Shown: in pieces, positions 39,822 to 60,429 of the stretch
Layout: every line of letters begins with the position of its first letter
Position numbering within the stretch: the first letter of the stretch is position 1
Assembly: GCA_030145305.1 (NCBI GenBank)
Contig: JAQYVX010000012.1
Coordinates: forward strand, 1 to 64,000
From: Halarcobacter sp.
GTDB lineage: Bacteria > Campylobacterota > Campylobacteria > Campylobacterales > Arcobacteraceae
DNA length: 64,000 nt
Direction: 5' to 3'
Notes under the pieces: generated by a model
The model's database searches: none
What the model was told of the DNA's origin: nothing
Seen by the model: the letters and a program-made list of their open reading frames with translations, nothing else
Position numbers and translations under genes: made by a program

Positions 39822-40310
39822 TTATTTTTTGTTAAACTCTTCTAAGATATTTTTGTAATCAATTTTATCTATGCTCTTTTCATAATGAGTAATTATCTCT
39901 TTTGGCATAACTATAGAACCAATTCTTGAAAATTGTATTCTTATTGAATTACATAAATCAGAGCCATTACTTCCTGAGTGAGTTGCAAGTTGTATTTTTT
40001 TTAATAAAAAGGCACTTAAATAATCTTCTCTAAATCTTGAAGCCCAAGCTAAAAAATTTGCAAAGATTGGTGGAATTGAATAGTTATATTCTGGATTAAC
40101 AAAAATAATACCTTCAGCTTCTTTTATCTCTTGAAGAAGTGGTTTTATTATAGAAGGGACTGTTCTATCTTTTTTACTATCAAATAGAGGTAACTCTAAT
40201 TCTACTAAATTAATTAGTTTTGTTTGTTTATTCATTAAAGTAAGTTCATTTTGTAAAAACTTTGCTAATTGTAAATTATCATTTATACTTGAAACAAATA
40301 TTAAAATCAT
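39822..40310 (-). CDS. NADPH-dependent FMN reductase family protein
   Basis: Flavodoxin-like reductase of 162 residues with LIFVSSINDNLQLAKFL at the N-terminus and the family motif IIFVNPEYNYSIPPIFANFLAW (about 74-95). It probably reduces FMN or quinones with NAD(P)H. It lies 11 nt after the iclR gene and is likely cotranscribed with it. It might supply reducing power to, or protect from products of, the oxygenases of the neighbouring cluster; that link is inference. Confidence 0.7.
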   Translation of the reverse strand: MILIFVSSINDNLQLAKFLQNELTLMNKQTKLINLVELELPLFDSKKDRTVPSIIKPLLQEIKEAEGIIFVNPEYNYSIPPIFANFLAWASRFREDYLSAFLLKKIQLATHSGSNGSDLCNSIRIQFSRIGSIVMPKEIITHYEKSIDKIDYKNILEEFNKK

Positions 40311-40321
40311 TTTCTCTCTTT

Positions 40322-41023
40322 TTAGAATTTGAAACTTTTACTCAAAGATAACATTTTATCTTCAATAAGAGTCATTTTTTGTTCATTGTATCTAGCAAGG
40401 GGCATTGAAACTCCAATAGCCGCAATCATTTTGCCACTTTTGTCAAAAATAGGCATTGATACACATCTTACACCTAATATAAACTCTTCATTATCGTAAG
40501 CTAAACCTTTTAACTTAATTTTTTCTATCTCTTTTTTTAAAACTTCTTTATCAGTAATTGTGTATTTTGTATACTCATGTAATACAATAGAATCAATACT
40601 AATTAAATCATAAGCAATAAAAAGTTTTCCTAAAGATGTTGAATGAATTGAATCAACCATTTCATCTTTTGCCTCAACACTTAATGAGTGATTAGGTTTT
40701 AAGCTATCTATAAAAACTAACTTATTATTCTCTAGTCTTACTAAATAAGTTATTTCATCGGAAATTTTAAATATTTCTTCTAATAAAGGTTGAGCCTTTT
40801 CTTTGATAATTGCATTTTGATTATATTCTACTAATTTACTTAAACATATATTTTTAGAATCTTTTTCATAATAAATAAATCCTCTTAATTCTAAGACCTT
40901 AAGAATTCGAGAAACAGAACTTTTATCCATATAGATGTTCTTGACAATTGCATCTGCTGTTATTTTTCCAGATGTGTTCATAATATATTGTAAGACTAAA
41001 AGTCCTTTATTTAAAGATTTAAT
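40322..41023 (-). CDS. IclR-family transcriptional regulator, apparent ATT start
   Basis: Likely regulator of the adjacent catabolic cluster. The first ATG in frame (40981) would cut off helix 1 of the winged helix. The frame continues upstream as KSLNKGLLVLQYIMNTSGKI, the usual IclR N-terminus, and ATT at 41021-41023 sits 6 nt after a perfect AAGGA. No ATG, GTG or TTG exists between the upstream stop and 40981. With this start the protein has 233 residues: HTH (about 1-65, with YMDKSSVSRILKVLELRGFI) and effector domain (about 75-233, with IHSTSLGKLFIAYD). Confidence 0.8.
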   Translation of the reverse strand: MKSLNKGLLVLQYIMNTSGKITADAIVKNIYMDKSSVSRILKVLELRGFIYYEKDSKNICLSKLVEYNQNAIIKEKAQPLLEEIFKISDEITYLVRLENNKLVFIDSLKPNHSLSVEAKDEMVDSIHSTSLGKLFIAYDLISIDSIVLHEYTKYTITDKEVLKKEIEKIKLKGLAYDNEEFILGVRCVSMPIFDKSGKMIAAIGVSMPLARYNEQKMTLIEDKMLSLSKSFKF

Positions 41024-41248: not shown

Positions 41249-42832
41249 TTATTTTAATTTTTCGTAAATATGTACTCCACTTCCTGCTCCAAGACCAGGT
41301 CCAGGATGGGTAGAAGCACCAATATGAAATAAATTTCGGTAAGGTGTTTCATGATTTTTTGTACCTTTTAAAGGTCTAAATAAAAGATATTGTTCAAGTT
41401 CACATTCACCTGAATAAGGATCACCTTTTTCAAGATTAATATTTGTATCATATAAATCTTTTGGAGAAATTATCTCTTTATAAATAATATTCTCTTTTAA
41501 AGCAGGTAGGTGTTTGCTTATTAAATTAATTATTCTATTAGAATATGCTTCTTTTAATTCTTCACTCCAACCTTCTTTTATTAATTCATTTAATTCATTT
41601 GCACTATCCAAAGTTGGGAAATATGGAGTTTCAGGAAGTTGTATCCATAAAACAGATTTACCATCTTTAACTCTTGAAGGATCACTATTACTAGGTTGAG
41701 CAATACAAATTGTTGGATTAGTAGGAAGAGCTCCCCTACTTGCTTCATTAATTGCTTTTGAAACTGCATCTATTCCATCTGTTATGTGAATATACCCCAC
41801 TTCATTAAGAGAACTATCTTTCCAAGATGTTTTTTCTTTTAAGATAAGATGAATTTGCATATTTCCTTTACTATTAAACTTAAACTCTTTAGCCTGTTTA
41901 TAAATAATAGGATTTTTCTCTCTTTGGTTTTTTAAAAGTTTTCCATATAAGGCATTGGGTGTAACATTTGCTATAATATTTTTTCCATTATAAATCACAT
42001 TATCTTTTGTTTTTACCCCAAGGGCTATATTATCTTTTGAAATAATTTCAACCACATCTTTATTAATTGAAAATTCTCCACCATTTTTTTCTATTATAGC
42101 CTGCAAAGCTTCTACTATTTTATAACTCCCACCTTTTATAAAAGGTGTTCCAACAAACTCCAAAGTAAAACATATGATTTTAGACATCAAAGCTGAAAAA
42201 GGACTATGTACACTAAGTCCTGTATGTAAAACCCAAGGTGCTAAAGTAGCTTTGAGTAAAGGAGATTTTATTTGAGTCTCTATTTGAGATGAAATAGTAG
42301 GCAAATACTCACCTATATCATCAATACTATTTTTTATGCCATTTTTAAATAAATGTTTTGCCATATATATAAGAAAACTTTTAGTACGAATTTCTGAAGA
42401 TAAAAGAGTAAATAAAAAATCTGCATTTTTTTCAACAAACTGTAAATATTTATTATATGTATCCCCGTCCCCTGGCATTAATTTATTTAAATTTTCAATA
42501 TTTTTTGCTCTATCTTTATAAAGAATAAAAGATTCTCCACTGTTTAAAATAGTTGCAGTTGGCTTATCATTTGATATAAATTCAATACCTTCTTTTTCCA
42601 AATCTTCAGCTAATAATTCATATGCTTTAGATGTTAAAAGTAGTGGGTAAGCTGTAGAAAAAAGATCAATAATACAATTTTCCACTTCTTTACTTTTAAT
42701 ACACCCACCAATATAATCAGAACGCTCAAGCAGGAGAACTTTTTTGCCACTTTTTGCTAAAAGTGCTGCTCCTACTAAAGAGTTAATACCACTTCCTATA
42801 AAAATATTATCATAGTATTTATTTGTCTTCAT
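41249..42832 (-). CDS. Phytoene-desaturase-like FAD-dependent oxidoreductase
   Basis: Predicted flavin oxidoreductase of 527 residues with an N-terminal FAD site (IFIGSGINSLVGAALLAKSGKK, then LLLERSDYIGG) and a C-terminal FAD motif GASTHPGPGLGAGSGVHIYE, as in the CrtI/PYROXD2-like amine-oxidase superfamily. No carotenoid genes are nearby. It lies 3 nt after the SDR gene in the same operon, so a role in oxidising an intermediate of the aromatic cluster is more likely than carotenoid synthesis. The substrate is unknown. Confidence 0.7.
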   Translation of the reverse strand: MKTNKYYDNIFIGSGINSLVGAALLAKSGKKVLLLERSDYIGGCIKSKEVENCIIDLFSTAYPLLLTSKAYELLAEDLEKEGIEFISNDKPTATILNSGESFILYKDRAKNIENLNKLMPGDGDTYNKYLQFVEKNADFLFTLLSSEIRTKSFLIYMAKHLFKNGIKNSIDDIGEYLPTISSQIETQIKSPLLKATLAPWVLHTGLSVHSPFSALMSKIICFTLEFVGTPFIKGGSYKIVEALQAIIEKNGGEFSINKDVVEIISKDNIALGVKTKDNVIYNGKNIIANVTPNALYGKLLKNQREKNPIIYKQAKEFKFNSKGNMQIHLILKEKTSWKDSSLNEVGYIHITDGIDAVSKAINEASRGALPTNPTICIAQPSNSDPSRVKDGKSVLWIQLPETPYFPTLDSANELNELIKEGWSEELKEAYSNRIINLISKHLPALKENIIYKEIISPKDLYDTNINLEKGDPYSGECELEQYLLFRPLKGTKNHETPYRNLFHIGASTHPGPGLGAGSGVHIYEKLK

Positions 42833-42835
42833 AAT

Positions 42836-43627
42836 TTAGCCTTCTGAAAGTAGTCTCATAAGAGGATCTTTTCTCTCAGGTCCTAAAATACTATACCCTC
42901 CATCTACGTTAAGTTTTGCACCTGTGATGTATGAAGCTTTTGAAGAAGCTATAAAGACTACTGTATTTGCAACTTCTTCAGGATTTGCAACTCTTCCTAC
43001 TAGATTATAAGCAGCTGTTGTTTTATTTGCATGTTCTTGATTATTTTCAGTCAAACCATTAAAAGGAGCTGACCAGATATGTCCTAATCTTAAATGATTT
43101 ACTCGAATTCCATCTTCTGAATAATCTAAAGCTTGAGATGAAGAAAGATGTTCCATTGCAGCTTTTGCTACAGGATAAGCCCATCTTCCTACATGAGCAG
43201 TTGTTCCTGAAATTGAACCAATATTGACAATATTTCCCTTTGATTCTTTTAAATAAGGTCGTAACTTTTCACCTAAAATTGCAGCTGAAACAACATTTAT
43301 ATTAAGTGTTTCAAGCCAAGTTTCTCTATTTGTAGCAGATCCTTCATCCCCATATGAACACGCATTATTTACTAAAATATCAATTTTTCCATACATAGTT
43401 ATAGTTTTATTTATTAGATTATCTAACTGTTCATCTTTTCCAATATCAGTTTGAAAAAATTTACAATTATCACCTAAAAGTTTTACAGCATATTCTCCAG
43501 CTTCATTACTTCGTGCAGCAATAACAACTTTTGCTCCAGCTTCAATTAAAGCTTTTGAAATACTCAAACCTATTGAAGCAGCTCCACCTGTAATAATTAC
43601 AACTTTACCTTCTAATTCAACATTCAT
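42836..43627 (-). CDS. Short-chain dehydrogenase/reductase
   Basis: Classical SDR of 263 residues: cofactor motif TGGAASIG (13-20), NNAC (87-90), active-site Ser near 138-140, and YPVAK with Tyr151 and Lys155, then a C-terminal NVDGGYSI. NAD(H) or NADP(H) preference is not certain. It lies between the flavin monooxygenase and the FAD oxidoreductase. By analogy with indole oxidation clusters, where an SDR oxidises the dihydrodiol or hydroxyindole, it might act after the monooxygenase; this is inference. Confidence 0.78.
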   Translation of the reverse strand: MNVELEGKVVIITGGAASIGLSISKALIEAGAKVVIAARSNEAGEYAVKLLGDNCKFFQTDIGKDEQLDNLINKTITMYGKIDILVNNACSYGDEGSATNRETWLETLNINVVSAAILGEKLRPYLKESKGNIVNIGSISGTTAHVGRWAYPVAKAAMEHLSSSQALDYSEDGIRVNHLRLGHIWSAPFNGLTENNQEHANKTTAAYNLVGRVANPEEVANTVVFIASSKASYITGAKLNVDGGYSILGPERKDPLMRLLSEG

Positions 43628-43661: not shown

Positions 43662-45158
43662 TTAAGATGCAAAATAATATTTTGATCTTTCTTCTTTAAA
43701 TATTTTTATTTTGCTTTTAATAATTTTATTATAAGCCAAAGGTGATGGAGGTAAATTCCACTGATTGAATCGTTCAAAAGTACTTAAATTTGTCCCCATA
43801 TCTTCACATAAATCATCAATATGATGAAAAGTAAATGGAATAATATTTGTACCTCTAGAGTTTTTACCATTTGTTCTTTCTTTTGACCAAGCTAATCTTT
43901 CATCCGTATCTTTTCTAAGTTTATCATCAAGTGGTAAGATAAAACCTTTTGTAAAGTACTCAGCTATCCAAAGTGCTCCAATTTCTGAACTTGTTGGACA
44001 GAAAAATGAAGAATGATAACCATTAAAAGACATATTTTTAATTCCAATTGGAATTTGATTTTTATATAATAAATAATCCCCATTTTCATCATATAACTTT
44101 TCTTGTAGCCTTTCTTCCATAAAAGGAACAACTTGTTGCCATCCTGTTCCACAGATAATTATATCTGTATCAATAACTTGTCCATTTTTAAGATAAGCTT
44201 TTTTAGGTTCAAGTTTTATTATTTCAGATTTTTCAAAATTAATTTCACCTGATCTAATTTTATCAAAGTGACCATCAGTATATAAACTAATATTTGAAGT
44301 TGCAATTGCTTCAAAACTTTTTTCAGGCTGTAACTTTGGTAATTTTTTTAGTTTTAATTTTCTTCCAACAAACCCTTCAACTCTATTAAGTAAAAAGTTT
44401 CTTACGCCTACCCCAGGTCCATGTAAAAACTTTGCAAAACCTGAAAGTGTCTTATACTTCATAAGGTTTTCACCCATTCTTGTTAAAAATAGATATTTAA
44501 AGTTTACACCAAAAACATATTTAGGAAGTTTCCAAACAACACTTCTTGCAACTTGTGTTAACTTATTTGTAATAGGAGCAATTGCATTCGCAACATCACA
44601 AGAAGACTTACCAAAACCTATAACAATTATATCTTTGCCTCTAGCATCTTCTTTATTAGTAAATTCAGAAGTATGACAAACTCTTCCTCCATTTTCTACA
44701 AACTCTTCGATTCCTTTATATTTTGGAATACTAGGAGTGCTAAAAATTCCATTACAAATAACAAGATAATCAAACTTTTCTGTATGAATAACTCCATCTT
44801 CTGACTTTGACTCAACAATCCAAGTATCATCACTTTCTTGTTTTGTACTTATAACAGTAGTATTAAACTTAATCAAGGGACGTAATTTTTGTTGATTGAT
44901 ATACTCTTCAAAATACTCTTGTACTTGTTCACCTTTTGGCCATTCAGGATGGCTTTTTAAAGGTGCTAAATCAGAAAGATGATAAGTATCTCTTGTATTT
45001 TGGGTACCTAAGCCAGGATACCTTCTACATGAAGCCCATACCCCACCTGCCTCTTTTTCTTTTTCATAAACTTGTACTTCAAACCCATATTGTTTAAAAA
45101 CATTTGCCGTTGAAATTCCTGAAAATCCTGCTCCAATTATACATGTCTTCTTGCTCAT
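43662..45158 (-). CDS. Flavin-containing monooxygenase (FMO/BVMO type)
   Basis: Predicted class B flavin monooxygenase of 498 residues. It has the FAD motif GAGFSG (9-14), an FMO-type box NGGRVCHTSEF (GxxxHxxxF, about 157-166) and the NADPH Rossmann motif GFGKSS (181-186), then a late ICGTGW. Such enzymes add one oxygen from O2 to N, S or carbonyl substrates, and some bacterial ones oxidise indole. It is the first gene of the minus-strand arm and is divergent from the cyclase operon across a palindromic site. Confidence 0.78.
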   Translation of the reverse strand: MSKKTCIIGAGFSGISTANVFKQYGFEVQVYEKEKEAGGVWASCRRYPGLGTQNTRDTYHLSDLAPLKSHPEWPKGEQVQEYFEEYINQQKLRPLIKFNTTVISTKQESDDTWIVESKSEDGVIHTEKFDYLVICNGIFSTPSIPKYKGIEEFVENGGRVCHTSEFTNKEDARGKDIIVIGFGKSSCDVANAIAPITNKLTQVARSVVWKLPKYVFGVNFKYLFLTRMGENLMKYKTLSGFAKFLHGPGVGVRNFLLNRVEGFVGRKLKLKKLPKLQPEKSFEAIATSNISLYTDGHFDKIRSGEINFEKSEIIKLEPKKAYLKNGQVIDTDIIICGTGWQQVVPFMEERLQEKLYDENGDYLLYKNQIPIGIKNMSFNGYHSSFFCPTSSEIGALWIAEYFTKGFILPLDDKLRKDTDERLAWSKERTNGKNSRGTNIIPFTFHHIDDLCEDMGTNLSTFERFNQWNLPPSPLAYNKIIKSKIKIFKEERSKYYFAS

Positions 45159-45324: not shown

Positions 45325-46113
45325 ATGAGTATATTATTAGATTTAGTTACAAATATAAAAAAACAAAGTATTGAAGTTATTGATTTAACACATACTTTAA
45401 GTGAGAATTTTCCAGCATTAGTGTTGCCATCAGAATTTGGTCAAGTTGCAGCTTTTAAAAAAGAAGAAGTTTCAAGGTATGATGAAAGAGGTGCAGCATG
45501 GTATTGGAATAATTTTACTGTTGGTGAACATTTTGGAACACATTTTGATGCCCCAGCACATTGGATTACAGGAAAAAATTGTAAGAATGGCACAGTAGAT
45601 ACAATTGGCGTTGAAAACTTTATAGGTGCTGCTAATATTATAGATGCCTCTAAAGAGTGTCAAGAAAATCCTGATTTTGTTTTAGATGTTGAATTTATCA
45701 AAGCTTGGGAAAAAAAGCATGGAGAAATTGAAGCAAAAACTTGGGTTATATTAAGAAGTGATTGGTACAAAAAAGATTTTGAAAAAGACTTTATAAATAT
45801 AGATGAAAATGGTTTATGTCATACACCAGGTCCTAATAAAGAAGCTATTGAATATTTAATCAAAAAAGATGTCTTAGGTTATGGATGTGAAACTATAAAT
45901 ACAGATGCTGGACTAAGTTTTACTTGGGAGTTTCAATTACCTTGTCATAACTTAATGCAAGGTGCTGGTAAATATGGTTTGCAATGCCTTAGAAATCTTG
46001 ACAAACTTCCAGCTAAAGGCAGTGTTATTATAGCAAGTCCTTTAAAAATTGAAGATGGTTCAGGTAGTCCGCTTCGTGTAATTGCCTTAGTAGAAAATAC
46101 TAATAAAGGTTAA
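45325..46113 (+). CDS. Cyclase-family hydrolase, isatin hydrolase/kynurenine formamidase type
   Basis: Metal-dependent amidohydrolase of 262 residues with the family motif HFGTHFDAPAHW, giving His69, His73, Asp75 and His79 as metal and catalytic residues. Characterised relatives are kynurenine formamidase KynB and isatin hydrolase, which opens the lactam ring of isatin to isatinate. The following genes encode a 2-oxoacid oxidoreductase and an aroyl-CoA hydroxylase, which would accept isatinate and anthraniloyl-CoA, so isatin hydrolysis is the reading I favour. It is the first gene of the plus-strand operon, with 3 nt to the next. Confidence 0.75.
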   Translation: MSILLDLVTNIKKQSIEVIDLTHTLSENFPALVLPSEFGQVAAFKKEEVSRYDERGAAWYWNNFTVGEHFGTHFDAPAHWITGKNCKNGTVDTIGVENFIGAANIIDASKECQENPDFVLDVEFIKAWEKKHGEIEAKTWVILRSDWYKKDFEKDFINIDENGLCHTPGPNKEAIEYLIKKDVLGYGCETINTDAGLSFTWEFQLPCHNLMQGAGKYGLQCLRNLDKLPAKGSVIIASPLKIEDGSGSPLRVIALVENTNKG

Positions 46114-46116
46114 GAC

Positions 46117-48267
46117 ATGGCAGAAAAGTCTTTTAAAAAAGAGGTTGAAGCTTTACGTATAGAAGCTGGTAAAACTTTTCATGGAGAAGGAATACTAGCT
46201 GTAACTAAAGCTTTATTAGAATCAGGTGTTTCTTATATTGGAGGATATCAAGGTTCTCCAATATCACATTTAATGGATGTTTTCTCAGATGCAAAACCTC
46301 TTTTAGATGAACTTAACATATACTTTGAGGAAAGTGCTTCAGAAGCAACTGCTGCTGCTATGTTAAGTGCTTCTGTTATGTTTCCTGTGCGTGGTGCAGT
46401 TACTTGGAAATCTACAGTTGGAACAAATGTAGCTTCTGATGCTTTATCAAATCTTGCATCAGGAGGTGTTTTAGGTGGGGCTTTAATTATTGTTGGAGAA
46501 GATTATGGTGAAGGTTCATCAATTATGCAAGAGAGAACTCATGCCTTTGCTATGAAATCTCAAATCTGGCTATTTGACCCCAGACCAAATCTTCCTTCAA
46601 TAGTTGCAGGGGCAAAAAAAGCTTTTGAATTATCAGAAGCTAGTAGTACACCTGTCATTTTCCAAATGAGAGTTCGTTCATGTCATTTACATGGGGAATT
46701 TATTACAGCAGAAAATCAAAAACCAAAAATGACCATGCAAGATTGTTTAAACAACCCTAAAAGAGATTTAAATAGAATTGTTTTACCTCCTGCTTCATTT
46801 GTACATGAAAAAGAAAAAGAAGAAAAACGTTTACCTGCTGCTATTAAATTTATTAAAGAAGAAAAAATAAATGAATTTTTCAAATCTTCACAAAATAGTG
46901 AAAAGGTAGGAATTATTGTACAAGGTGGTTTATATAACAATTTAAATAGAGCTTTATTGTTAAATGATTTAAGTGATAACTTTGGTGAAACAAAGATAGA
47001 TACTTATGTTCTTAATATTACATATCCTTTAATTAATGATGAAATAGTTGAATTTTGTAAAACAAAAGAACATGTATTAATTATTGAAGAAGGTCAACCT
47101 AATTATATTGAACAAAATATTAGTTTAATACTTGCCAAAAATGATATTAGAACAAAAATGTATGGGAAAGACATTTTACCATATTCAGGGGAATACAGTA
47201 CACAAATAATAGAAAAAGGACTTAAGAAATTCTTAGATAAAAGTTCTTTCACTCAAATAAAAACACTAAGTAATTTTACAGTTGCTCCTTTACAAACAGC
47301 TCCTTTAAGCTTAAATAATGTTCCTGCAAGACCAGCTGGATTTTGTATAGGATGTCCAGAAAGACCAATTTTTGCAGCCCTTAAACTAGTACAAGGAAGA
47401 ATAGGAGAGCATTATATTAGTTCTGATATTGGATGTAACCTTTTCTCAATTTTACCTCCTTTTAATATTGGAGCTACAACTATGGGATATGGACTATCTT
47501 CTGCATCAAGTGCTGCTTTTAGTAAAACGGGAACAGGCAAAAACGATAAAAGAGCTATTTCAATTATGGGAGATGGTGGTTTTTGGCACAATGGCTTAAC
47601 AACTGGGATTACAAATGCCGTATATAACAAATCTGATTCAGTTATTGTAATTATAGATAATTATTATGCTGCTGCAACTGGTGGACAAGACTTACCTTCT
47701 TCAAGAGTATTTAATCCTTTTAGAAAAACGAATAATTCAATTGAGAAAGCTGTTAAAGCAGTTGGCGTTAAATGGATAAGAACTACAGATGATACATATG
47801 ATGTTAGTAAATTAGTAAAAATTTTCAATGAAGCTTTGACTACAGAAGAAAAAGGTCCAAAGATTATTATTGCTAGTAGTGAATGTATGCTTAATAAGCA
47901 ACGTCGTGAAAAGCCTATTGTGAAAGAACAGATAAAACAAAAAGTAAGAGTTCTACAAGAAAAATTTGGAGTAGATTCTGAAATTTGTACAGGTGATCAT
48001 GAATGTATTAGACTTTCAGGTTGCCCTTCTCTTACTTTAACTTATAGTGATAATTTTTTAAGAGATGATCCAATTGCAAAAATTGATAATGATTGTGTTG
48101 CTTGTGGAAATTGTGGAGAAGTTGCAGAAGAAGCAATTTTATGTCCTTCTTTTTACAAAGCTCAAATTATAAAAAACCCTAACTTCTTTGATAGGTTTTT
48201 TCATAGTTTTAGTAATTCAATAAAAAATTACTTATTAAATAAAAAAGAAAAAAAGGTTTACGCATGA
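46117..48267 (+). CDS. Indolepyruvate:ferredoxin oxidoreductase alpha-like subunit, TPP and Fe-S
   Basis: TPP-dependent 2-oxoacid:acceptor oxidoreductase subunit of 716 residues. It has the pyrimidine-binding domain (about 15-200), the TPP site beginning GDGGFWHNGL (about 485) with a later IIDNYYAAATGG, and a C-terminal ferredoxin-like cluster CVACGNCGEVAEEAILCPS (about 658-676), preceded by CTGDHECIRLSGCP. Such enzymes decarboxylate arylpyruvates or arylglyoxylates and form a CoA thioester. In this operon isatinate (2-aminophenylglyoxylate) would give anthraniloyl-CoA; this substrate is inferred. It overlaps the next gene by 4 nt. Confidence 0.82.
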   Translation: MAEKSFKKEVEALRIEAGKTFHGEGILAVTKALLESGVSYIGGYQGSPISHLMDVFSDAKPLLDELNIYFEESASEATAAAMLSASVMFPVRGAVTWKSTVGTNVASDALSNLASGGVLGGALIIVGEDYGEGSSIMQERTHAFAMKSQIWLFDPRPNLPSIVAGAKKAFELSEASSTPVIFQMRVRSCHLHGEFITAENQKPKMTMQDCLNNPKRDLNRIVLPPASFVHEKEKEEKRLPAAIKFIKEEKINEFFKSSQNSEKVGIIVQGGLYNNLNRALLLNDLSDNFGETKIDTYVLNITYPLINDEIVEFCKTKEHVLIIEEGQPNYIEQNISLILAKNDIRTKMYGKDILPYSGEYSTQIIEKGLKKFLDKSSFTQIKTLSNFTVAPLQTAPLSLNNVPARPAGFCIGCPERPIFAALKLVQGRIGEHYISSDIGCNLFSILPPFNIGATTMGYGLSSASSAAFSKTGTGKNDKRAISIMGDGGFWHNGLTTGITNAVYNKSDSVIVIIDNYYAAATGGQDLPSSRVFNPFRKTNNSIEKAVKAVGVKWIRTTDDTYDVSKLVKIFNEALTTEEKGPKIIIASSECMLNKQRREKPIVKEQIKQKVRVLQEKFGVDSEICTGDHECIRLSGCPSLTLTYSDNFLRDDPIAKIDNDCVACGNCGEVAEEAILCPSFYKAQIIKNPNFFDRFFHSFSNSIKNYLLNKKEKKVYA

Positions 48268-49796
48268 AAAAAGTAGAACCTATAAAAATAGCACTTCTTG
48301 CAGTAGGTGGAGATGGTGGTTCAGTTTTTACTTCTTGGTGTGTTAATCTAGCTAAAAACTGTGGTTATTTTGCATCTAGTACATCAATTGCAGGGGTTGC
48401 ACAAAGAACTGGTTCTACATTATATTATTTAGAACTACTTCCACAAATTGAAATTAAAAAAAGAGATAAGACTCCTGTTTTATCACAAATGCCAGTGCCA
48501 GGATATGTTGATATTGTTATAGCAACGGAGATAGTTGAAATTGGACGGGCACTTAATAGAGGTTTGATTAGTGAAAATACTACGGTGGTTTTTTCTTCTC
48601 ATAGAAATTTGGCAATTTCTGAAAAGTCATCAAGTGCAGATGAAATAATTGATGCAAAAACAATTATTGAAGAAGTAGAAAAACATACAAAAAGCAAAAT
48701 TATATATGCAAATTTTAAGAAAATTGCAAAAAAGAATGGAAGCGTAATTTCATCATCATTATTAGGAGCACTTAGTGCTAGCCAAGCACTTCCTTTTTCA
48801 AAAGAAAATTTTGAAAAAGTTATTATTGATGACAAAATTGGAGTAGAAAATTCTATTAGATCTTTTAGAGAAGCTTACGATGAGGTAAAAAATGAAAATA
48901 AAAGTGAAGAAATAGATACGGGCTTAGAAAAAGCAAAATTAAAAACAATTAATAAGAATTCGACTAATAAAGAAGTTCAAAAATTTGTAAAAAGAATAGA
49001 GCATTATGACAAGAGTTTACATGATATTGCGTATTTAGGAGTTATGCATACGAGTAATTGGCATGACCATAAATGGGGTAATTATTATTTAGATGAGTTA
49101 GAAAAAATTATAAAACTAGACAAAAAAGAGAAGAATTTTTCTCTTAGTTATAACTATGCTAAATATTTAAGTACTGCATTGAGTTATGATGATTTAATCT
49201 TTGTTTCTTCTATTAAAACTAGTAAAAAAAGGTTAAAAGAAGTAAGAGAACAAGTTGAAGCTAAAGAGAATGAGTTAGTTGAAGTTTTAGATTTTTTACA
49301 TCCTGGGTTCGAAGAATTTTGTGGTTTTATGCCAAAAGGCTTAGGATCTAAAATAAGTAAAAGCAACAAATTTAAAAACTTTTTTACAAAATATTTAGAT
49401 AGAGATAGAAGAATGAAAAGTACAAACTTATTTAACTTTTTAATTCTATATTTTGTTGGAACTCTTAAAAACTGGAGATTAAAAAGTTTTAGACATTTTG
49501 AAGAGATGGAAAATGTTGATTTTTGGAATAAAAAAATTAAAAAACTTTTAGAGACTAATTATGAGCTAGCTGTTTTAGTAGTACAAAGTTATAGAGTAAA
49601 AAAAGGTTATGGAGATACTTTTCATAGATCTCAATCAAAATTTAAAATCTTACTTGATTTAGCGGATGAAATAAAAAATGATTTAAATGCTGTACCTATT
49701 TTTCAAGAAGCATATGAAATAGCTTTGAAGAATCCCGAAGTTAGTGCGCTTAAAAAAGAAATTCAATATATCATAAAAAATAAAAAGGAATTATAA
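48264..49796 (+). CDS. Indolepyruvate oxidoreductase beta-like subunit with extended C-terminus
   Basis: Gamma-type domain of 2-oxoacid:acceptor oxidoreductases (about 1-190: ALLAVGGDGGSVFTSWCVNL at the start, GVAQRTGSTLYYLELLP, VDIVIATEIVEIGRALNRG). A long, mostly helical C-terminal extension (about 230-510) follows, as in the roughly 500-residue beta family that carries DUF6537. Classical IorB is only about 200 residues. It partners the upstream alpha-like subunit; stop and start overlap on both sides, indicating a coupled operon. Confidence 0.8.
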   Translation: MKKVEPIKIALLAVGGDGGSVFTSWCVNLAKNCGYFASSTSIAGVAQRTGSTLYYLELLPQIEIKKRDKTPVLSQMPVPGYVDIVIATEIVEIGRALNRGLISENTTVVFSSHRNLAISEKSSSADEIIDAKTIIEEVEKHTKSKIIYANFKKIAKKNGSVISSSLLGALSASQALPFSKENFEKVIIDDKIGVENSIRSFREAYDEVKNENKSEEIDTGLEKAKLKTINKNSTNKEVQKFVKRIEHYDKSLHDIAYLGVMHTSNWHDHKWGNYYLDELEKIIKLDKKEKNFSLSYNYAKYLSTALSYDDLIFVSSIKTSKKRLKEVREQVEAKENELVEVLDFLHPGFEEFCGFMPKGLGSKISKSNKFKNFFTKYLDRDRRMKSTNLFNFLILYFVGTLKNWRLKSFRHFEEMENVDFWNKKIKKLLETNYELAVLVVQSYRVKKGYGDTFHRSQSKFKILLDLADEIKNDLNAVPIFQEAYEIALKNPEVSALKKEIQYIIKNKKEL

Positions 49797-50818
49797 TGGA
49801 AGATTTACAAAAATTTAAAGTTGCGTCAGTTCAAGATGCACCAGTTTTTTTAGACAAAACTGCTACAACAAAAAAAGCCTGTGGATTAATTGAAAAAGCT
49901 GCTTCAAATGGTGCAAATCTTGTTGCCTTTCCAGAAGTTTTTTTAGCTGGTTATCCATATTGGAATTGGATTATGACTCCTGTTCAAGGAAGTGCTTGGT
50001 TTGAAAAATTATACAAAGCTTCCGTAGATGTTCCAGGGCCTGAAGTTACTGCTTTATGTCAAGCAGCAAAAGAAAACAATATTTTTGTTGTTATGGGAAT
50101 AAATGAAAGAGATGAACACTCAATTGGAACAATATATAACACTTTATTAGTAATTGATAATGAAGGTAACCTTATAGGTAAACATAGAAAATTAGTTCCA
50201 ACTTGGGCTGAAAAACTAACTTGGACGGGAGGTAATGGTTCAAGTCTAAATGTTTATAAAACCAAAACTATTGGAAATCTAGGAGTTTTAGCTTGTGGAG
50301 AGAACACTAACACTTTAGCTAGATTTGCACTTTTAGCTCAAGGAGAAAATCTTCATATTGCAAATTATATTTCACTTCCTGTAGCCCCGGAAGGTTACGA
50401 TATGGCTGAAGCTATAAAAATCCGATCAATGGCTCATTCTTTTGAAGGGAAAGTTTTCACAATTGTATCTTGTTCAACTATAAGTGAAGAAATCATTGAA
50501 ATTATGGGGGAGGAAATACCAAATGCAAAAGAGTTGTTAACAAGAAAAAACAGTGCTTATAGTGGAATAATTGGGCCTGATGGTAGAGAGGTTTCTAAAC
50601 CTTTGATTGATGAAGTTGGTATTGTTTATGCAGAAGTTGATTTAAATAAATGTATTCAAGCAAAACAAATGCACGATATTTTAGGTCATTATAATCGTTT
50701 TGATGTTTTTAATTTAACTCTTGATAAAAGAGATAAAAGTCCTTTAGAGATTATTCAAAATACTCCTAAAGCAAAAGACGATAACGATAGTGACGAAATA
50801 GTTCAAGAACAAATTTAA
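49796..50818 (+). CDS. Nitrilase-superfamily carbon-nitrogen hydrolase
   Basis: Cytoplasmic C-N hydrolase of 340 residues with catalytic triad Glu47 (FPEVFLAGYPYWNW), Lys132 (KHRKLVPTWAEKLTW) and Cys167 (ACGEN). The motif context is that of true nitrilases (aryl or arylaliphatic nitriles to acids) more than of amidases. Two roles fit: making an aryl acid such as indoleacetate from a nitrile, or, if it acts as an amidase, releasing ammonia from maleamate after ring cleavage. It sits between the oxidoreductase and dioxygenase genes. Confidence 0.8.
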   Translation: MEDLQKFKVASVQDAPVFLDKTATTKKACGLIEKAASNGANLVAFPEVFLAGYPYWNWIMTPVQGSAWFEKLYKASVDVPGPEVTALCQAAKENNIFVVMGINERDEHSIGTIYNTLLVIDNEGNLIGKHRKLVPTWAEKLTWTGGNGSSLNVYKTKTIGNLGVLACGENTNTLARFALLAQGENLHIANYISLPVAPEGYDMAEAIKIRSMAHSFEGKVFTIVSCSTISEEIIEIMGEEIPNAKELLTRKNSAYSGIIGPDGREVSKPLIDEVGIVYAEVDLNKCIQAKQMHDILGHYNRFDVFNLTLDKRDKSPLEIIQNTPKAKDDNDSDEIVQEQI

Positions 50819-50843
50819 AATCAAATTAAAAAAGGAGAAGAAA

Positions 50844-51992
50844 ATGGAAAAGAAAGCTGAAGATAATTTTGAAGACCAATATGGTAGAGCTGGGGTTAGG
50901 GATACTCCACAATTATTAGAATATTACTCAAAACTAAAAGCCTTAAATACAGATGCTTTATGGACTATTGCAAATGCTATTGAGCCTTGGGAACCAAAAC
51001 CAACTTCAATTCCTATGCTTTGGAAATATAAAGATTTAAGAGAATTAGTTATTCAATCAGCTGATTTAGTAAAACCTGAGGAAGCAGGAAGAAGAGTTGT
51101 TTATTTTGCAAATAAAGGAAGAACTGAAACAGGGGCTTGTGTAGGTTGGCTTTATTCAGGTTTACAAACAATGAGACCAGGTGAATTTACTCCTGCTCAT
51201 AGACATATGGCTTCTGCTTTACGTTTTATTATGGAAGGTAAAGGTGCTTACACTGTTGTTAATGGTCATAAAATTGACTTAAATGCAAGGGATTTTGTTA
51301 TTACTCCAAATGATTGTTGGCATGACCATGGGGTTTATGAAGATGGGGAACAATGTATTTGGCAAGATGGTTTAGATATTCCATTAATGAATACACTTGA
51401 TTGTAACTTTTATGATGTTTATCCAAAACCAGCACAAAGTGCAAAATATCCTCTTAATGATATGCCTTTGTCTCATGCAGGTAGTGGAGTTTTACCAGAT
51501 AAATTAAATTGGGAAAATGACTATTCTCCTATTATGAGATTTAGTTTTGAGAATACATATAATGCACTAAAAGATTTAGACAAAGTTTCTAAAGGTGATA
51601 AATATGGTGGTCATACGGTTAGATATATAAACCCTACAAATGGTGGACATGTAATGGCTACGATGGGTGGCTATATGCAAATGTTAAGAAACTCTGAAAG
51701 TACTACAAGTTATAGAAGAACGGGAAGTTATGTTTTTCAAGTAGCTAAAGGAAAAGGTTATTCAATTATAGGCGGAAAACGTTTTGATTGGGAAGAAAAA
51801 GATGTTTTTGTAATTCCATCTTGGACATTCTTTACACATCATAATCTTGATGATAATGATGATGCCTGTCTTTTCTGTTTTAATGATTTACCAATAATGG
51901 AAAAACTTGGTTTGTATTTTGAAGAGAGTTATGCTGAATATGAAGAAGCATTAAAAAAAGGTTATAAGTCAAGCTACCAAGGTAGAGACTAA
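50844..51992 (+). CDS. Gentisate 1,2-dioxygenase-like ring-cleaving cupin
   Basis: Bicupin iron dioxygenase of 382 residues. The first cupin carries PAHRHMASALRFIMEGKGAYT and TPNDCWHDHG, giving Fe ligands His119, His121 and His160; the second cupin (about 265-360) lacks this set. This is the gentisate dioxygenase layout and normal length. Family members open gentisate, 5-substituted salicylates or related 2,5-substituted benzoates between C1 and C2. With a 2-amino group at that position the product would be an amide. A GGAGAAG Shine-Dalgarno precedes the start. Confidence 0.85.
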   Translation: MEKKAEDNFEDQYGRAGVRDTPQLLEYYSKLKALNTDALWTIANAIEPWEPKPTSIPMLWKYKDLRELVIQSADLVKPEEAGRRVVYFANKGRTETGACVGWLYSGLQTMRPGEFTPAHRHMASALRFIMEGKGAYTVVNGHKIDLNARDFVITPNDCWHDHGVYEDGEQCIWQDGLDIPLMNTLDCNFYDVYPKPAQSAKYPLNDMPLSHAGSGVLPDKLNWENDYSPIMRFSFENTYNALKDLDKVSKGDKYGGHTVRYINPTNGGHVMATMGGYMQMLRNSESTTSYRRTGSYVFQVAKGKGYSIIGGKRFDWEEKDVFVIPSWTFFTHHNLDDNDDACLFCFNDLPIMEKLGLYFEESYAEYEEALKKGYKSSYQGRD

Positions 51993-52028
51993 AAAATAAA
52001 ATTTAAATAAAAATAAAGGATAATAATT

Positions 52029-52958
52029 ATGAAATTAGTAACATTTTCGAGAAATAATATGGATTTAAGAGTTGGAGCTATAGTAGAAGATACAATAGTT
52101 GATTTAGCAGTTTTAGCACAAAGAAATGGCGAGTATTTACCAAGTACGATGCTTGAGTTTATTGAACAATCTCCAACTTCATTAGAAGTTGCAAATAACT
52201 TAATTTCTAAAGGTAACTTTGGTTCAGGTGTTGCGTTTTTTAAAGAGAATGTAAAAATTCATGCTCCTATTCCAAAACCAAAAAAGAATATTTTTGGAAT
52301 TGGGCTAAATTATCATAAACATATTGCAGAATCTGCAAAAAGTTTAGATACAAAAGATGAAGTTCCAAGTGAAATTGTAATTTTTTCTAAGCCACCTAGT
52401 ACAGTTTGTGGTTATGGTGATGCTATTGAGCATAATAGTAATATTACACAAAAATTAGATTGGGAAGTTGAGCTTGGTGTGATTATTGGAAAAGCTGGTA
52501 AAAAAGTAGATAAAAAAGATGCTTATAAACATATTTTTGGATACACAGTTATTATTGATGTAAGTGCACGTGATTGTAGAAGAAGTGGACAATGGATTGT
52601 ATCAAAAGGACAAGATACTTTTGCACCAATGGGACCTTGTATTGTTACTGCTGATGAGATTGAAGATCCACATAATTTAAATTTATGGTTAACTAAAAAT
52701 GGAGAAATGAAGCAAGAAGACAATACAAAAAATATGGTTTTTAAAATTGATGAAATTATTTCTGATTTAAGTACTGTAATGAGTTTAGATGCTGGGGATA
52801 TTATTGCAAGTGGAACTCCTTCAGGTGTTGGTGCTGGAATGGATCCTCAAGAATGGATGTGGCCAGGTGATGTGATTGAAGCTGGAGTTGAAAATGTTGG
52901 TAGATTATATAACCCAGTTGTAGATGTTACGAACAAAAAAAATATCTTAGAAGACTAG
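52029..52958 (+). CDS. Fumarylacetoacetate hydrolase-family acylpyruvate hydrolase
   Basis: C-C bond hydrolase of 309 residues with N-terminal domain (about 1-75) and catalytic FAH domain: FGIGLNYHKHIAES, DWEVELGVIIGKAGK with acidic metal ligands, FGYTVIIDVSARD and ASGTPSGVGAG. After gentisate-type cleavage it would split the acylpyruvate product (maleylpyruvate or its amide) into pyruvate and maleate or maleamate. No maleylpyruvate isomerase is seen, which supports a direct hydrolytic route. Confidence 0.85.
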   Translation: MKLVTFSRNNMDLRVGAIVEDTIVDLAVLAQRNGEYLPSTMLEFIEQSPTSLEVANNLISKGNFGSGVAFFKENVKIHAPIPKPKKNIFGIGLNYHKHIAESAKSLDTKDEVPSEIVIFSKPPSTVCGYGDAIEHNSNITQKLDWEVELGVIIGKAGKKVDKKDAYKHIFGYTVIIDVSARDCRRSGQWIVSKGQDTFAPMGPCIVTADEIEDPHNLNLWLTKNGEMKQEDNTKNMVFKIDEIISDLSTVMSLDAGDIIASGTPSGVGAGMDPQEWMWPGDVIEAGVENVGRLYNPVVDVTNKKNILED

Positions 52959-52966
52959 GCTTTATT

Positions 52967-53722
52967 ATGAAAAAGAGAACTTACAGAATAGGACAGATTG
53001 TACCTAGTTCTAATACAACAATGGAGACTGAAATTCCAGCTATGCTTTTAAAAAGACAGGAAACACAGCCTGAAAAATTCACTTTCCATTCAAGTAGAAT
53101 GAGAATGAAACATGTAACAAAAGAAGAGTTACAAAAAATGGATTGTGACTCTGGACGTTGTGCTTTAGAATTAAGTGATGCAAGAGTTGATGTAATGGGT
53201 TATGCTTGTTTAGTAGCAATCATGAGTATGGGTAATTCATATCATAGAGTATCTGAAAAAAATCTTCATGCTCTTACAGTTGAAAATGGCTATCCAACAC
53301 CCATTGTTTCAAGTGCTGGAGCTTTAGTTCAAGGGCTTAAAGCAATGGGGGCAAAAAAAGTATCAATTTTAACTCCATATATGAAACCTTTAACACAATT
53401 AGTAGTTGATTATATAGAAAATGAAGGTATTACAGTACATGATTCACACTCATTAGAGATAAGTGATAATTTAGAAGTTGGGGCACAAGATTCTTTGGCC
53501 CCTTCAAAATTATATAAAAATCTAGATACAACAGGAGTTGATTGTGTAGTTTTATCAGCTTGTGTACAAATGCCATCTTTAGAATCAGTTCAAATAGTAG
53601 AAGATGAATTAGGTATTCCAGTTATAACAGCTGCGGTTGCAACAACATATAGAATGTTAAAAGAGTTAAACTTAGATACAAAGATACCTGGTTTTGGCGA
53701 ATTATTAAGTGGTAAATACTAA
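52967..53722 (+). CDS. Maleate cis-trans isomerase
   Basis: Asp/Glu racemase superfamily enzyme of 251 residues with the two catalytic cysteines of maleate isomerase: Cys81 (MGYACLVAIMSMG) and Cys199 (LSACVQMPS), plus the N-terminal VPSSNTTMETEIP substrate loop. It would convert maleate to fumarate for the TCA cycle. Its presence right after the FAH hydrolase strongly suggests that maleate is released by the pathway. A relative such as arylmalonate decarboxylase is less likely given the paired cysteines. Confidence 0.85.
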   Translation: MKKRTYRIGQIVPSSNTTMETEIPAMLLKRQETQPEKFTFHSSRMRMKHVTKEELQKMDCDSGRCALELSDARVDVMGYACLVAIMSMGNSYHRVSEKNLHALTVENGYPTPIVSSAGALVQGLKAMGAKKVSILTPYMKPLTQLVVDYIENEGITVHDSHSLEISDNLEVGAQDSLAPSKLYKNLDTTGVDCVVLSACVQMPSLESVQIVEDELGIPVITAAVATTYRMLKELNLDTKIPGFGELLSGKY

Positions 53723-53752
53723 GAAATATCAAGTAAATATTAAGGAACTAAG

Positions 53753-55717
53753 ATGAAAAGAATTGTTTGTATGGGCGGAGGACCTGCTGGACTTTATTAT
53801 GGATTGTTACACAAAAAGAATAATCCAAAAGATGAAGTTACTATTATAGATAGAAATTTACCAAATAGTACTTTTGGATGGGGAGTAGTATTTTCAGATG
53901 TTACAATGCAAAATCTATATAAAGTGGATGAGAAATCAGCACAAATTATTAATGACGCATTAAATCATTGGGAAGATATTGAATGTTTTTTCCAAGGAGA
54001 GAAACATCGTTCAACAGGACATGGGTTTATTGGTATTGGAAGATTAAAACTTTTAAATATTTTACAAGAAAGAGCGGCAGAACTTGGCGTTACTCTTGTT
54101 TATGATAAAAAATTCACAAATGATGAAGATATTGTAAAAGAATACAATCCTGACTTAATTATAGCAGCTGATGGACTTAATAGTATTGTAAGAGAAAAAT
54201 ATGAAGATGATTTTGATGTAGATATTGATATGCGAAGCTGTAGATTTACTTGGTTAGGGACGCATAAACTTTTTGATGCATTTACTTTTATTTTTGAAAA
54301 GACTAAATTTGGTTGGATGAGTGTTCACGCTTATAAGTTTGATGAGAATACTTCTACTTTTATTGTTGAGATGAAAGAAGAGGACTGGTATAAAGCAGGA
54401 CTTGATAAAATGAGTCAAGAAGAAGCAATTGCATTTTGTGAAGATGTTTTTAAAGACTATCTAGACAGTAATAAATTAATGACTAATGCCAAACATTTAA
54501 GAGGTTCAGCAAATTGGATTAAATTTCCACGAATAATCTGTAATAAATGGAATACATATAAACAATATGGAGATAAAAAAATACCATTAGTTTTAATGGG
54601 TGATTCATCCCATACAGCACACTTTTCAATAGGTTCAGGTACAAAACTAGCTCTAGAAGATGCTATTTGTTTTGATAGATTATATGCTGAATGCGAAGGT
54701 AACTTAGAAAAAGTTTTTGAAAAATATGAGAAAGAAAGAAGAATTGAAGTAGCAAGAATCAAAAACTCTGCTAGAAATTCTACTTGGTGGTTTGAACAAG
54801 TAAAACTTCATGAAGAATTAGATCCTTTAGTATATTATTATTCAATGCTTACAAGATCGCAAAGAATATCACATGAAAATTTATACTTAAGAGATAAAAA
54901 GTTTATTACAAACTTTGAAAATAAATTAACAAATGGAAAACTTCCTGTTGAAGATAGTTTAACAATTTCTAATATAAAACTTGAAAATCGTTATGTTCTA
55001 GATTCGAATGTAAGTCAAAAACAACTTAATACAGGAGCTGGTCTTATTCTAAGCTCTGCTTTTGATGTATCTTCACATATAGATATTTCAAAAGATTATG
55101 ATATTAAAGCATTACAAGAATCAGGTTCTAAAATAGCTATTACTTTAACAGCAACACAAAATAAATCTAATGATGACATAATTTTAGATTTTGAAAAAAA
55201 TGCAATAATATCTGAAAAAGATGGTGCAGATTTTATTTCTATAGATTGTGCCTCTAATGTTTTAGGTAAATTAGTAAATGATAGTGACTATGTACTTGCG
55301 ATTAAAGTTATAAATAGACTTCAAAATGCAGTTAAAATTCCTTTGATGATAAAAATAAATGCATCAAATTGGGATACAGATGTTGCTGATATTGGTGATG
55401 TTATATCTTTTGTAAAAGAGTTAAAAAAAGCTAATATAAATTTAGTAATAGTAAGTTCTGGTGCATATAGTGATAAGAATATGGATAAAAGGTCTTTAGG
55501 AAGAGTTTATAATGGTTGTTTTAGTGATGAAATTAAGAATTCACTTAATATTAGTGTGATTTGTATAGGTAATATCTCTAGTTTAGATGAAGCCAACTCA
55601 TTAATAGCAGCAGCTAGAGCAGATTTAGTTGCAATTGATCATAAAACAATCACTAATAATTCTTTTAAAGAACAAGTTACTTTAATAAGAGAAAATAGAA
55701 ATTTAATTAAGGAATGA
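53753..55717 (+). CDS. Salicylyl-/anthraniloyl-CoA 5-hydroxylase-like flavin monooxygenase with degenerate OYE domain
   Basis: Flavoprotein of 654 residues. Residues 1 to about 380 form an FAD aromatic hydroxylase (CMGGGPAGLYYGLLHKKNNP, GWGVVFSD, GDSSHTAHFSIGSGTKLALED), as in bifunctional salicylyl-CoA 5-hydroxylases and 2-aminobenzoyl-CoA monooxygenases. Residues about 400-654 resemble an old yellow enzyme barrel (IKINASNWD, IVSSGAY, CIGNISSLDEANSLIAAARADLVA). This part is about 100 residues short and I cannot see its catalytic His/Tyr motif, so reductase activity is doubtful. It would hydroxylate the aroyl-CoA at C5. Confidence 0.82.
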   Translation: MKRIVCMGGGPAGLYYGLLHKKNNPKDEVTIIDRNLPNSTFGWGVVFSDVTMQNLYKVDEKSAQIINDALNHWEDIECFFQGEKHRSTGHGFIGIGRLKLLNILQERAAELGVTLVYDKKFTNDEDIVKEYNPDLIIAADGLNSIVREKYEDDFDVDIDMRSCRFTWLGTHKLFDAFTFIFEKTKFGWMSVHAYKFDENTSTFIVEMKEEDWYKAGLDKMSQEEAIAFCEDVFKDYLDSNKLMTNAKHLRGSANWIKFPRIICNKWNTYKQYGDKKIPLVLMGDSSHTAHFSIGSGTKLALEDAICFDRLYAECEGNLEKVFEKYEKERRIEVARIKNSARNSTWWFEQVKLHEELDPLVYYYSMLTRSQRISHENLYLRDKKFITNFENKLTNGKLPVEDSLTISNIKLENRYVLDSNVSQKQLNTGAGLILSSAFDVSSHIDISKDYDIKALQESGSKIAITLTATQNKSNDDIILDFEKNAIISEKDGADFISIDCASNVLGKLVNDSDYVLAIKVINRLQNAVKIPLMIKINASNWDTDVADIGDVISFVKELKKANINLVIVSSGAYSDKNMDKRSLGRVYNGCFSDEIKNSLNISVICIGNISSLDEANSLIAAARADLVAIDHKTITNNSFKEQVTLIRENRNLIKE

Positions 55718-55720
55718 AAA

Positions 55721-56143
55721 TTGAAATTTATAATTGATGACAAAGTAAAATTTAAACATTGTGATACAGCTGGGATTGTTTTTTATCCTAGATATTTTGA
55801 AATGCTAAATGATACTATTGAAGATTGGTTTGAAGTTTTAGGATTGCCTTTTTGTGAGTTGCACTCATCAAATACAGGAGTTCCTATGGTAAATATTGAG
55901 TGTAACTTTAAAAAACCAAGTTATTTAGGGGATGTACTCAAAAAAGAGCTAAGCATAATAAAACTTGGAAAAAGTTCTTGTACTCTAAAAATTGAGTTTA
56001 TTGGGAAAAAAGATGAAAGTTTAAGGGTAGAGTTTTTTTGTACTATTGTAAATATAGACCTTGCAAAAAAGACCTCAAGCTTTTGGAGTGATGAAATTAA
56101 AAATAAAATGAATAAATACTTACAAAATAAGGAAGAAAAATGA
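55721..56143 (+). CDS. 4-hydroxybenzoyl-CoA thioesterase-family hot-dog thioesterase
   Basis: Aroyl-CoA thioesterase of 140 residues starting at TTG (55721), with AAGGA 7 nt upstream. The motif FKHCDTAGIVFYPRYFEM contains the catalytic Asp15 of the 4HBT family, and the rest fits one hot-dog domain. It follows the aroyl-CoA hydroxylase by 3 nt, so it probably releases the free hydroxylated acid (gentisate or 5-hydroxyanthranilate) for the cupin dioxygenase. Its stop overlaps the porin start. Confidence 0.85.
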   Translation: MKFIIDDKVKFKHCDTAGIVFYPRYFEMLNDTIEDWFEVLGLPFCELHSSNTGVPMVNIECNFKKPSYLGDVLKKELSIIKLGKSSCTLKIEFIGKKDESLRVEFFCTIVNIDLAKKTSSFWSDEIKNKMNKYLQNKEEK

Positions 56144-59814: not shown

Positions 59815-60429
59815 CTATTGAACTTCAAATCTTTGTTCTAGTAAAACTTTTCCTTTTTCTAATATTTTTCCTACAAAAATATCACCTGTGTTAAACTCAC
59901 CAACACCTTTAGGCGTTCCACTCATTAAAATATCTCCATCTTCAAAAGAAGAAAAAGTTAAAAGTTCATCTATAATCTCTTGTGGCTTGTTAATCATAAG
60001 TTCAACTCCACCTTTTTGCTTAAGCTCATTATTAATATATAATTCTACTTCCAAATCTTTAATATTTGAATTAAAACTTACAAACTTTGAGAATACAGCA
60101 GCTGCATTAAAACATTTTGCTCTTTCCCAAGGAAGTCCTTTTTTCTTTAATTTACTTTGAACTTCTCTTAAAGTTAAATCAAGTCCAAATCCTACTGCGT
60201 TTATTTTATTTTCTTCTATTAAAAAAGAGATTTCAGCTTCATAATGACAAGATCTATTTCCTTTTGGAAAAACTAAAGTATTACTAATAGAAGAGTTTGG
60301 TTTAAAAAAGAAAACTGGTTCTTCTGGAGTCTCATTATTTAACTCAGCTATATGTTCTGCATAATTTCTTCCAATACATACAACTTTTGAAGGAAATATT
60401 TCTCTATCATTTATTATTATTGCATTCAC
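59815..60429 (-). CDS. Small FAH-family hydrolase, FAHD1-like
   Basis: Single-domain fumarylacetoacetate hydrolase-family protein of 204 residues: VVCIGRNYAEHIAEL, FFFKPNSSI, CHYEAEISFLIEENK with acidic metal ligands, and SGTPKGVGEFNTGD. Relatives act as acylpyruvases or oxaloacetate decarboxylases. It is distinct from the operon copy at 52029-52958 in lacking the N-terminal domain, and it is separated from it, so it is probably housekeeping. Confidence 0.8.
   Translation of the reverse strand: MNAIIINDREIFPSKVVCIGRNYAEHIAELNNETPEEPVFFFKPNSSISNTLVFPKGNRSCHYEAEISFLIEENKINAVGFGLDLTLREVQSKLKKKGLPWERAKCFNAAAVFSKFVSFNSNIKDLEVELYINNELKQKGGVELMINKPQEIIDELLTFSSFEDGDILMSGTPKGVGEFNTGDIFVGKILEKGKVLLEQRFEVQ

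Follow-up and report, generated by a model that had tools for sequence, protein, structure and literature searches.

A candidate CoA-acylating isatinate oxidoreductase beside isatin hydrolase in a putative indole-degradation cluster of Halarcobacter

Introduction

How might a bacterium supply an aroyl-CoA pathway from a gene cluster that encodes no CoA ligase? The question was raised by a 64,000-nucleotide stretch of Halarcobacter sp. DNA (contig JAQYVX010000012.1, positions 1 to 64,000; hereafter the window), which belongs to a genome of 3.03 Mb in 77 contigs. Two genes at 46117–49796 encode a protein pair related to the indolepyruvate oxidoreductase subunits IorA and IorB, immediately behind an isatin hydrolase gene. 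A first-pass annotation had proposed that this pair takes the place of the usual aryl-CoA ligase; it missed the match of the pair to IadA/IadB of bacterial auxin-degradation loci and the complete lower pathway in the cluster. Here we argue that the pair is likely to carry out the oxidative decarboxylation of isatinate to anthraniloyl-CoA, a reading favoured by the gene order, its broad conservation, the isatin hydrolase, the lack of a dedicated ligase and co-occurrence with a hydroxylase. Isatin hydrolase would open isatin to isatinate (2-aminophenylglyoxylate). The pair, a predicted thiamine pyrophosphate (TPP)- and Fe-S-dependent 2-oxoacid:acceptor oxidoreductase, would then convert isatinate and CoA to anthraniloyl-CoA, CO2 and reduced acceptor, with no ATP consumed. 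The sequences themselves show the gene families, an operon-like arrangement, and patterns of conservation and co-occurrence; the electron acceptor, the indole-to-isatin steps and all substrates other than those of isatin hydrolase and maleate isomerase, as families, are inferred.

Results and Discussion

The two open reading frames, both on the forward strand, overlap by 4 bp and encode an IorA-like protein of 716 residues (46117–48267) and an IorB-like protein of 510 residues (48264–49796). Reading frames, profile scores and domains bore out the earlier assignment of the pair. IorA scored below the cut-off of TIGR03336, the equivalog family of the indolepyruvate ferredoxin oxidoreductase alpha subunit (298.5 versus 650.9 bits), and by this measure is a relative of classical IorA, not a member. 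Its TPP domain is intact (PF02775, 62.8 bits, residues 451–584), with a GDG...DN motif. IorB exceeded the cut-off of the indolepyruvate oxidoreductase subunit beta family NF006179/PRK08312 (477.6 versus 348 bits, residues 2–504), and contains a POR domain (PF01558, 37.6 bits, residues 15–205) and DUF6537 (residues 253–462). In its predicted fold, residues 6–211 form a POR-gamma domain that aligns with 3on3 over 162 residues (Z 20.1). The C-terminal part, about 280 residues, is helical, and a structure search with the whole protein returned no clear solved match for it. Searching solved structures by sequence with IorA and IorB likewise gave no close match.

An extra IorB domain of some 280 residues had been singled out previously as absent from the classical subunit. 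The domain is real, but it is already catalogued as DUF6537 and ordinary in this subfamily. IorB matched over at least 430 residues at 85 of 89 loci, so DUF6537 is general in the subfamily, and PRK13030, the fused IOR family, shows homology that extends into this part of the protein. The first ferredoxin-type site of IorA reads C-x2-D-x2-C at 89 of 89 loci, with the aspartate at residue 627, compared with C-x2-C-x2-C at the same site in classical IorA from Acetoanaerobium. Aspartate in place of the second cysteine might change the cluster or how well it tolerates oxygen.

The isatin hydrolase gene (45325–46113, forward strand) lies 3 bp upstream of iorA. Its product scored 333 bits to PDB 5nmp and carries the metal motif H69-x3-H73-x-D75-x3-H79 (HFGTHFDAPAH, residues 69–79), in agreement with the Mn-site residues of isatin hydrolase (PMC6117287). 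A scan of species genomes returned at least 591 relatives, of which the best 80 were kept; these are the most similar ones and not independent of each other. Neighbourhoods were counted at the 55 loci whose 10-kb flanks were complete. An isatin hydrolase gene lay within 10 kb of iorA at 44 of them, and the 5-hydroxylase gene considered below at 19. In about a dozen loci isatin hydrolase stood directly upstream of iorA on the same strand. The adjacency recurs in alpha-, beta- and gammaproteobacteria, an actinobacterium and the window genome. Just two isatin hydrolases were found in 120 random Burkholderiales genomes, both about 10 kb from an iorA.

In an IorA tree (FastTree, 97 rows) the window protein grouped in a set of 69 rows (support 98) together with the iad members of Achromobacter and Bradyrhizobium. 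It sits inside isatin-hydrolase-associated groups, as a long branch placed by FastTree alone. The Variovorax iad members lie elsewhere, separate from a 5-row paralogue clade. No isatin hydrolase was found near the iorA genes of a separate clade at about 50–55% identity (L114, L115, L117 and L118). This wider paralogous clade, and the fact that indolepyruvate oxidoreductases are the nearest named families of the pair, would suit an ordinary indolepyruvate or arylpyruvate oxidoreductase of aromatic amino acid breakdown that lies beside isatin hydrolase incidentally. We consider that explanation highly improbable in view of an IorA score far under the classical cut-off, an adjacency repeated across the lineages listed above, and an operon with no aminotransferase.

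Two tandem IorA paralogues of about 50% identity were observed in Burkholderiales (L115, 1610–5876, and G205:C61, 40929–45160), in the clade devoid of isatin hydrolase. Several genomes of that clade carry a 50% homologue of the 5-hydroxylase, and the same mode of entry may thus serve other arylglyoxylates or arylpyruvates there.

Because IorAB is proposed to make anthraniloyl-CoA, a genome with the pair would be expected to hold an enzyme that uses this thioester. In the window this would be a 654-residue protein of the anthraniloyl-CoA/salicylyl-CoA 5-hydroxylase family (53753–55717, forward strand). Full-length homologues (47–78% identity) were present somewhere in 49 of 50 genomes, from several orders, that hold IorAB and isatin hydrolase, and in 14 of the 120 random Burkholderiales genomes. 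Within that random sample they occurred in 8 of the 15 genomes with iorA versus 6 of the 105 others (p = 1.6e-5, an indicative value as kinship was ignored). Together with the 3-bp spacing and the 44 of 55 loci, the 49 of 50 genomes support the earlier suggestion that isatinate is the substrate of the pair, which we regard as likely, if still a prediction from sequence. The window hydroxylase fell below the cut-off of NF006101, the bifunctional salicylyl-CoA 5-hydroxylase/oxidoreductase family (640 versus 1078 bits). Alignment to relatives of about 770 residues revealed several missing blocks in the OYE half, which is much reduced. Such a reduction fits the release of aromatic 5-hydroxyanthraniloyl-CoA, a product of 2-aminobenzoyl-CoA monooxygenase/reductase under NADH limitation (PMC3534580).

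The absence of a CoA ligase from the cluster, as first annotated, was upheld: no AMP-binding protein was found within the window. The search outside it that had been recommended located five AMP-binding proteins in the genome (L001–L005), none of which looks dedicated to the cluster pathway. All five are remote from the Tsukamurella-cluster ligase of the anthranilate/benzoate type, with at most 26–27% identity. The best candidate, L001 (1405–3924, G000:C60), has a benzoate-CoA-ligase-like AMP-binding domain fused to a CitE-like domain and adjoins another CitE-like gene. All 12 genus relatives sampled carry it, and all belong to the group without isatin hydrolase and IorB; judged by this distribution it is a genus core gene. 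The other proteins include a carnitine-type ligase and one encoded beside a glycosyltransferase-like gene. Sets that combine isatin hydrolase and IorAB with thioesterase, 5-hydroxylase, cupin and FAH-family genes, again without a ligase, were also found in Caballeronia (L011), Pseudomonas gessardii (L052) and Novosphingobium (L072); an AMP-binding motif search was negative at these three loci, and its positive control worked. With presence of the usual anthranilate/benzoate-type ligase scored at E ≤ 1e-90, 9 of 36 genomes checked that carry IorAB and isatin hydrolase lacked it, and 8 of the 9 still have the 5-hydroxylase.

Several observations weigh against the conversion of isatinate to anthraniloyl-CoA by the pair. 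Isatin hydrolase is missing nearby at 11 of the 55 full-flank loci, and from 3 of the 5 genomes in the random sample with an iorA of at least about 57% identity. The full-length hydroxylases of L011, L052 and L072 retain the OYE half, and a reduced half is thus not needed for the ring-cleavage route. The usual ligase accompanies the pair in 27 of the 36 genomes. For this reason "replace" overstates the general case: the earlier claim fits the window genome and some relatives, among them the eight hydroxylase genomes without a ligase, whereas in many bacteria the pair occurs alongside one. Finally, Variovorax with iadC-K2 reaches anthranilate without iadAB (PMC12633357), so isatinate can reach anthranilate otherwise.

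The last two observations also favour a route in which isatinate yields free anthranilate or 2-aminobenzaldehyde, through IorAB acting without CoA, another enzyme or a spontaneous reaction, and an unlinked ligase makes anthraniloyl-CoA. The same Variovorax accumulates C7H7NO, and the window genome does hold one benzoate-CoA-ligase-like protein, L001. We find this route improbable, given that the L001 fusion is shared by genus relatives from a group that has neither isatin hydrolase nor IorB, that the remaining AMP-binding proteins are not close to the anthranilate/benzoate type, and that in eight relatives the hydroxylase occurs without such a ligase. Isatinic acid is an intermediate observed in the literature. 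In a 2025 preprint, a strain restored with iadC-K2, a construct that by name excludes iadA and iadB, strongly accumulated C8H7NO3, the formula of isatinate, and strong accumulation of C8H7NO3 and C7H7NO was confined to strains overexpressing iadC-K2 (PMC12633357). The C8H7NO3 build-up fits loss of an isatinate-consuming enzyme; overexpression explains it too.

The ten genes from isatin hydrolase to a porin form a forward-strand run (45325–57345) with intergenic gaps of –4 to 36 bp, and those downstream of the pair would carry anthraniloyl-CoA to fumarate. The flavin hydroxylase would form 5-hydroxyanthraniloyl-CoA, and a 4HBT-type thioesterase (55721–56143; 4HBT_2, 47 bits) would hydrolyze it to free 5-hydroxyanthranilate. 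A gentisate-1,2-dioxygenase-like bicupin (50844–51992; 486 bits to PDB 3bu7), the proposed 5-hydroxyanthranilate 1,2-dioxygenase, would cleave the ring between C1 and C2, beside the amino group, leaving the nitrogen as the carboxamide of maleamylpyruvate. An FAH-family hydrolase (52029–52958; FAA_hydrolase, 221 bits) would split this into maleamate and pyruvate. Maleamate would then be hydrolyzed to maleate and ammonia by a nitrilase-superfamily enzyme (49796–50818; CN_hydrolase, 137 bits), a putative maleamate (or maleamylpyruvate) amidase, and maleate converted to fumarate by a maleate cis-trans isomerase (52967–53722) that is NicE-like and matches PDB 4fq7 over its full length (332 bits, residues 4–251). 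As a matter of chemical inference, each conserved gene finds a role in this sequence from 5-hydroxyanthranilate onwards. The nitrilase-family and isomerase genes are best understood if maleate and an amide form. Maleate isomerases of this kind act after maleamate hydrolysis in nicotinate breakdown.

The lower pathway could instead run over gentisate. The amino group would then leave ahead of ring cleavage and the nitrilase-family protein would be a true nitrilase with another role; this alternative touches the lower half alone and does not conflict with formation of anthraniloyl-CoA by IorAB. In its favour, the cupin has gentisate dioxygenases as its closest relatives, PDB relatives of the nitrilase-family protein hydrolyze nitriles or cyanide, and anthranilate conversion to gentisate via 5-hydroxyanthranilate has been proposed in Nocardia (PMC4539516). 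However, the cluster encodes no deaminase and its isomerase is closest to maleate isomerase. The nitrilase-family protein is conserved together with cupin, FAH-family and isomerase genes at L011, L012, L013 and L058, and its active-site signature CGENTNTLAR is common to cluster homologues, with CGEN around the active cysteine versus CWEN in an ordinary relative in L072. We therefore think the gentisate variant unlikely and prefer cleavage of 5-hydroxyanthranilate itself.

The bicupin scored below the gentisate 1,2-dioxygenase cut-off of TIGR02272 (307 versus 442 bits). Its second site reads YRR at residue 290 compared with HRH in the Ruegeria protein, and the second iron site of the window enzyme has probably been lost. 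The Ruegeria pomeroyi cupin (L013, 4569–5693), from a cluster of this type, appears to be the "gentisate 1,2-dioxygenase" of PDB 3bu7, as the stretches compared agree; its natural substrate may be 5-hydroxyanthranilate. A second FAH-family gene lies at 59815–60429 and is about 30% similar to the cluster FAH over part of its length. The run closes with an OprD-like outer-membrane porin (56140–57345) of possible use in uptake, whose Pfam OprD score of 21.6 bits is below the cut-off of 25.

Five reverse-strand genes diverge from isatin hydrolase. Nearest is a flavin-containing monooxygenase (FMO; 43662–45158; Pfam FMO-like, 102 bits; 41% to a Tsukamurella neighbour), followed by an SDR dehydrogenase (42836–43627; NF006121, 296 bits; 39% to the Tsukamurella cluster SDR). 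Indole would be hydroxylated by the former and dioxindole oxidized to isatin by the latter, and the cluster probably breaks down indole (or isatin) through isatin. A tryptophanase, as a source of indole inside the cell, was sought and gave weak beta-eliminating-lyase matches only. Three upstream supply types were distinguished among relatives: the iad auxin set, the FMO/SDR set (Tsukamurella L014 and the window), and other or unknown suppliers. No pathway step was assigned to the FAD-dependent oxidoreductase of the amine-oxidase/phytoene-desaturase type (41249–42832; Pfam Amino_oxidase). An oxidoreductase of this type stands beside isatin hydrolase at 21 of the 55 full-flank loci (for example L040, L047 and L083). 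An IclR-family protein (40322–40981; Pfam IclR_C, 107 bits) is the likely cluster regulator, and an NADPH-dependent FMN reductase family protein (39822–40310; Pfam FMN_red, 67 bits) possibly supplies flavin. Horizontal transfer is the most likely origin of the cluster, since IorB and isatin hydrolase were without counterpart in the 99 other genomes sampled from the order to which the window genome belongs.

If the proposal holds, a reaction would be assigned to IadA/IadB (IotA/IorB), the exclusive markers of the iad auxin-degradation loci (PMC9613470) of plant-root bacteria. It would also provide candidate genes for the long-reported, gene-less "gentisate" route of anthranilate and indole (PMC6221969), and several bacterial phyla would gain a CoA thioester aerobically by arylglyoxylate oxidative decarboxylation, not by an ATP-dependent ligase. 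A broader hypothesis has in our estimate an even chance of being right: that IadA/IadB and the window pair are a widespread aerobic CoA-acylating isatinate:acceptor oxidoreductase working without free anthranilate or ATP, that it feeds an undescribed 5-hydroxyanthranilate/maleamate route to fumarate, and that DUF6537 and a modified Fe-S site, possibly with Asp as a ligand, suit it to oxygen. No paper describing formation of anthraniloyl-CoA from isatinate by such a pair was found in the open-licence literature searched.

Comparison with Known Systems

Classical IorAB (TIGR03336/TIGR03334) shares the TPP, POR-gamma and Fe-S domains of the window pair, which differs in its low score, an N-terminal extension and insertions, the C-x2-D-x2-C site and the additional DUF6537. 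Phenylglyoxylate:NAD+ oxidoreductase of Azoarcus/Aromatoleum has five subunits and serves anaerobic phenylalanine metabolism. Compared by description, the same chemistry would apply (arylglyoxylate and CoA to aroyl-CoA and CO2), with another gene make-up and substrate.

The 2-aminobenzoyl-CoA monooxygenase/reductase pathway of Azoarcus evansii (PMC4539516, PMC3534580) also presents anthraniloyl-CoA to a flavin hydroxylase of the same kind. There, however, an AMP-forming ligase makes the thioester, and the hydroxylase product undergoes reduction before beta-oxidation enzymes act, whereas the window encodes a thioesterase and a ring-cleaving cupin. The "iadA/iadB" of Pseudomonas LY1 (PMC8383072) were not used as evidence, no such oxidoreductase being mentioned there. 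Closest are IadA/IadB of the Variovorax, Achromobacter and Bradyrhizobium iad loci (PMC9613470), which belong to the same two-subunit oxidoreductase subfamily and have an isatin hydrolase-like gene nearby. In place of the Rieske oxygenase iadCDE, ligase iadF and thiolase iadG of those loci, the window carries the FMO/SDR set.

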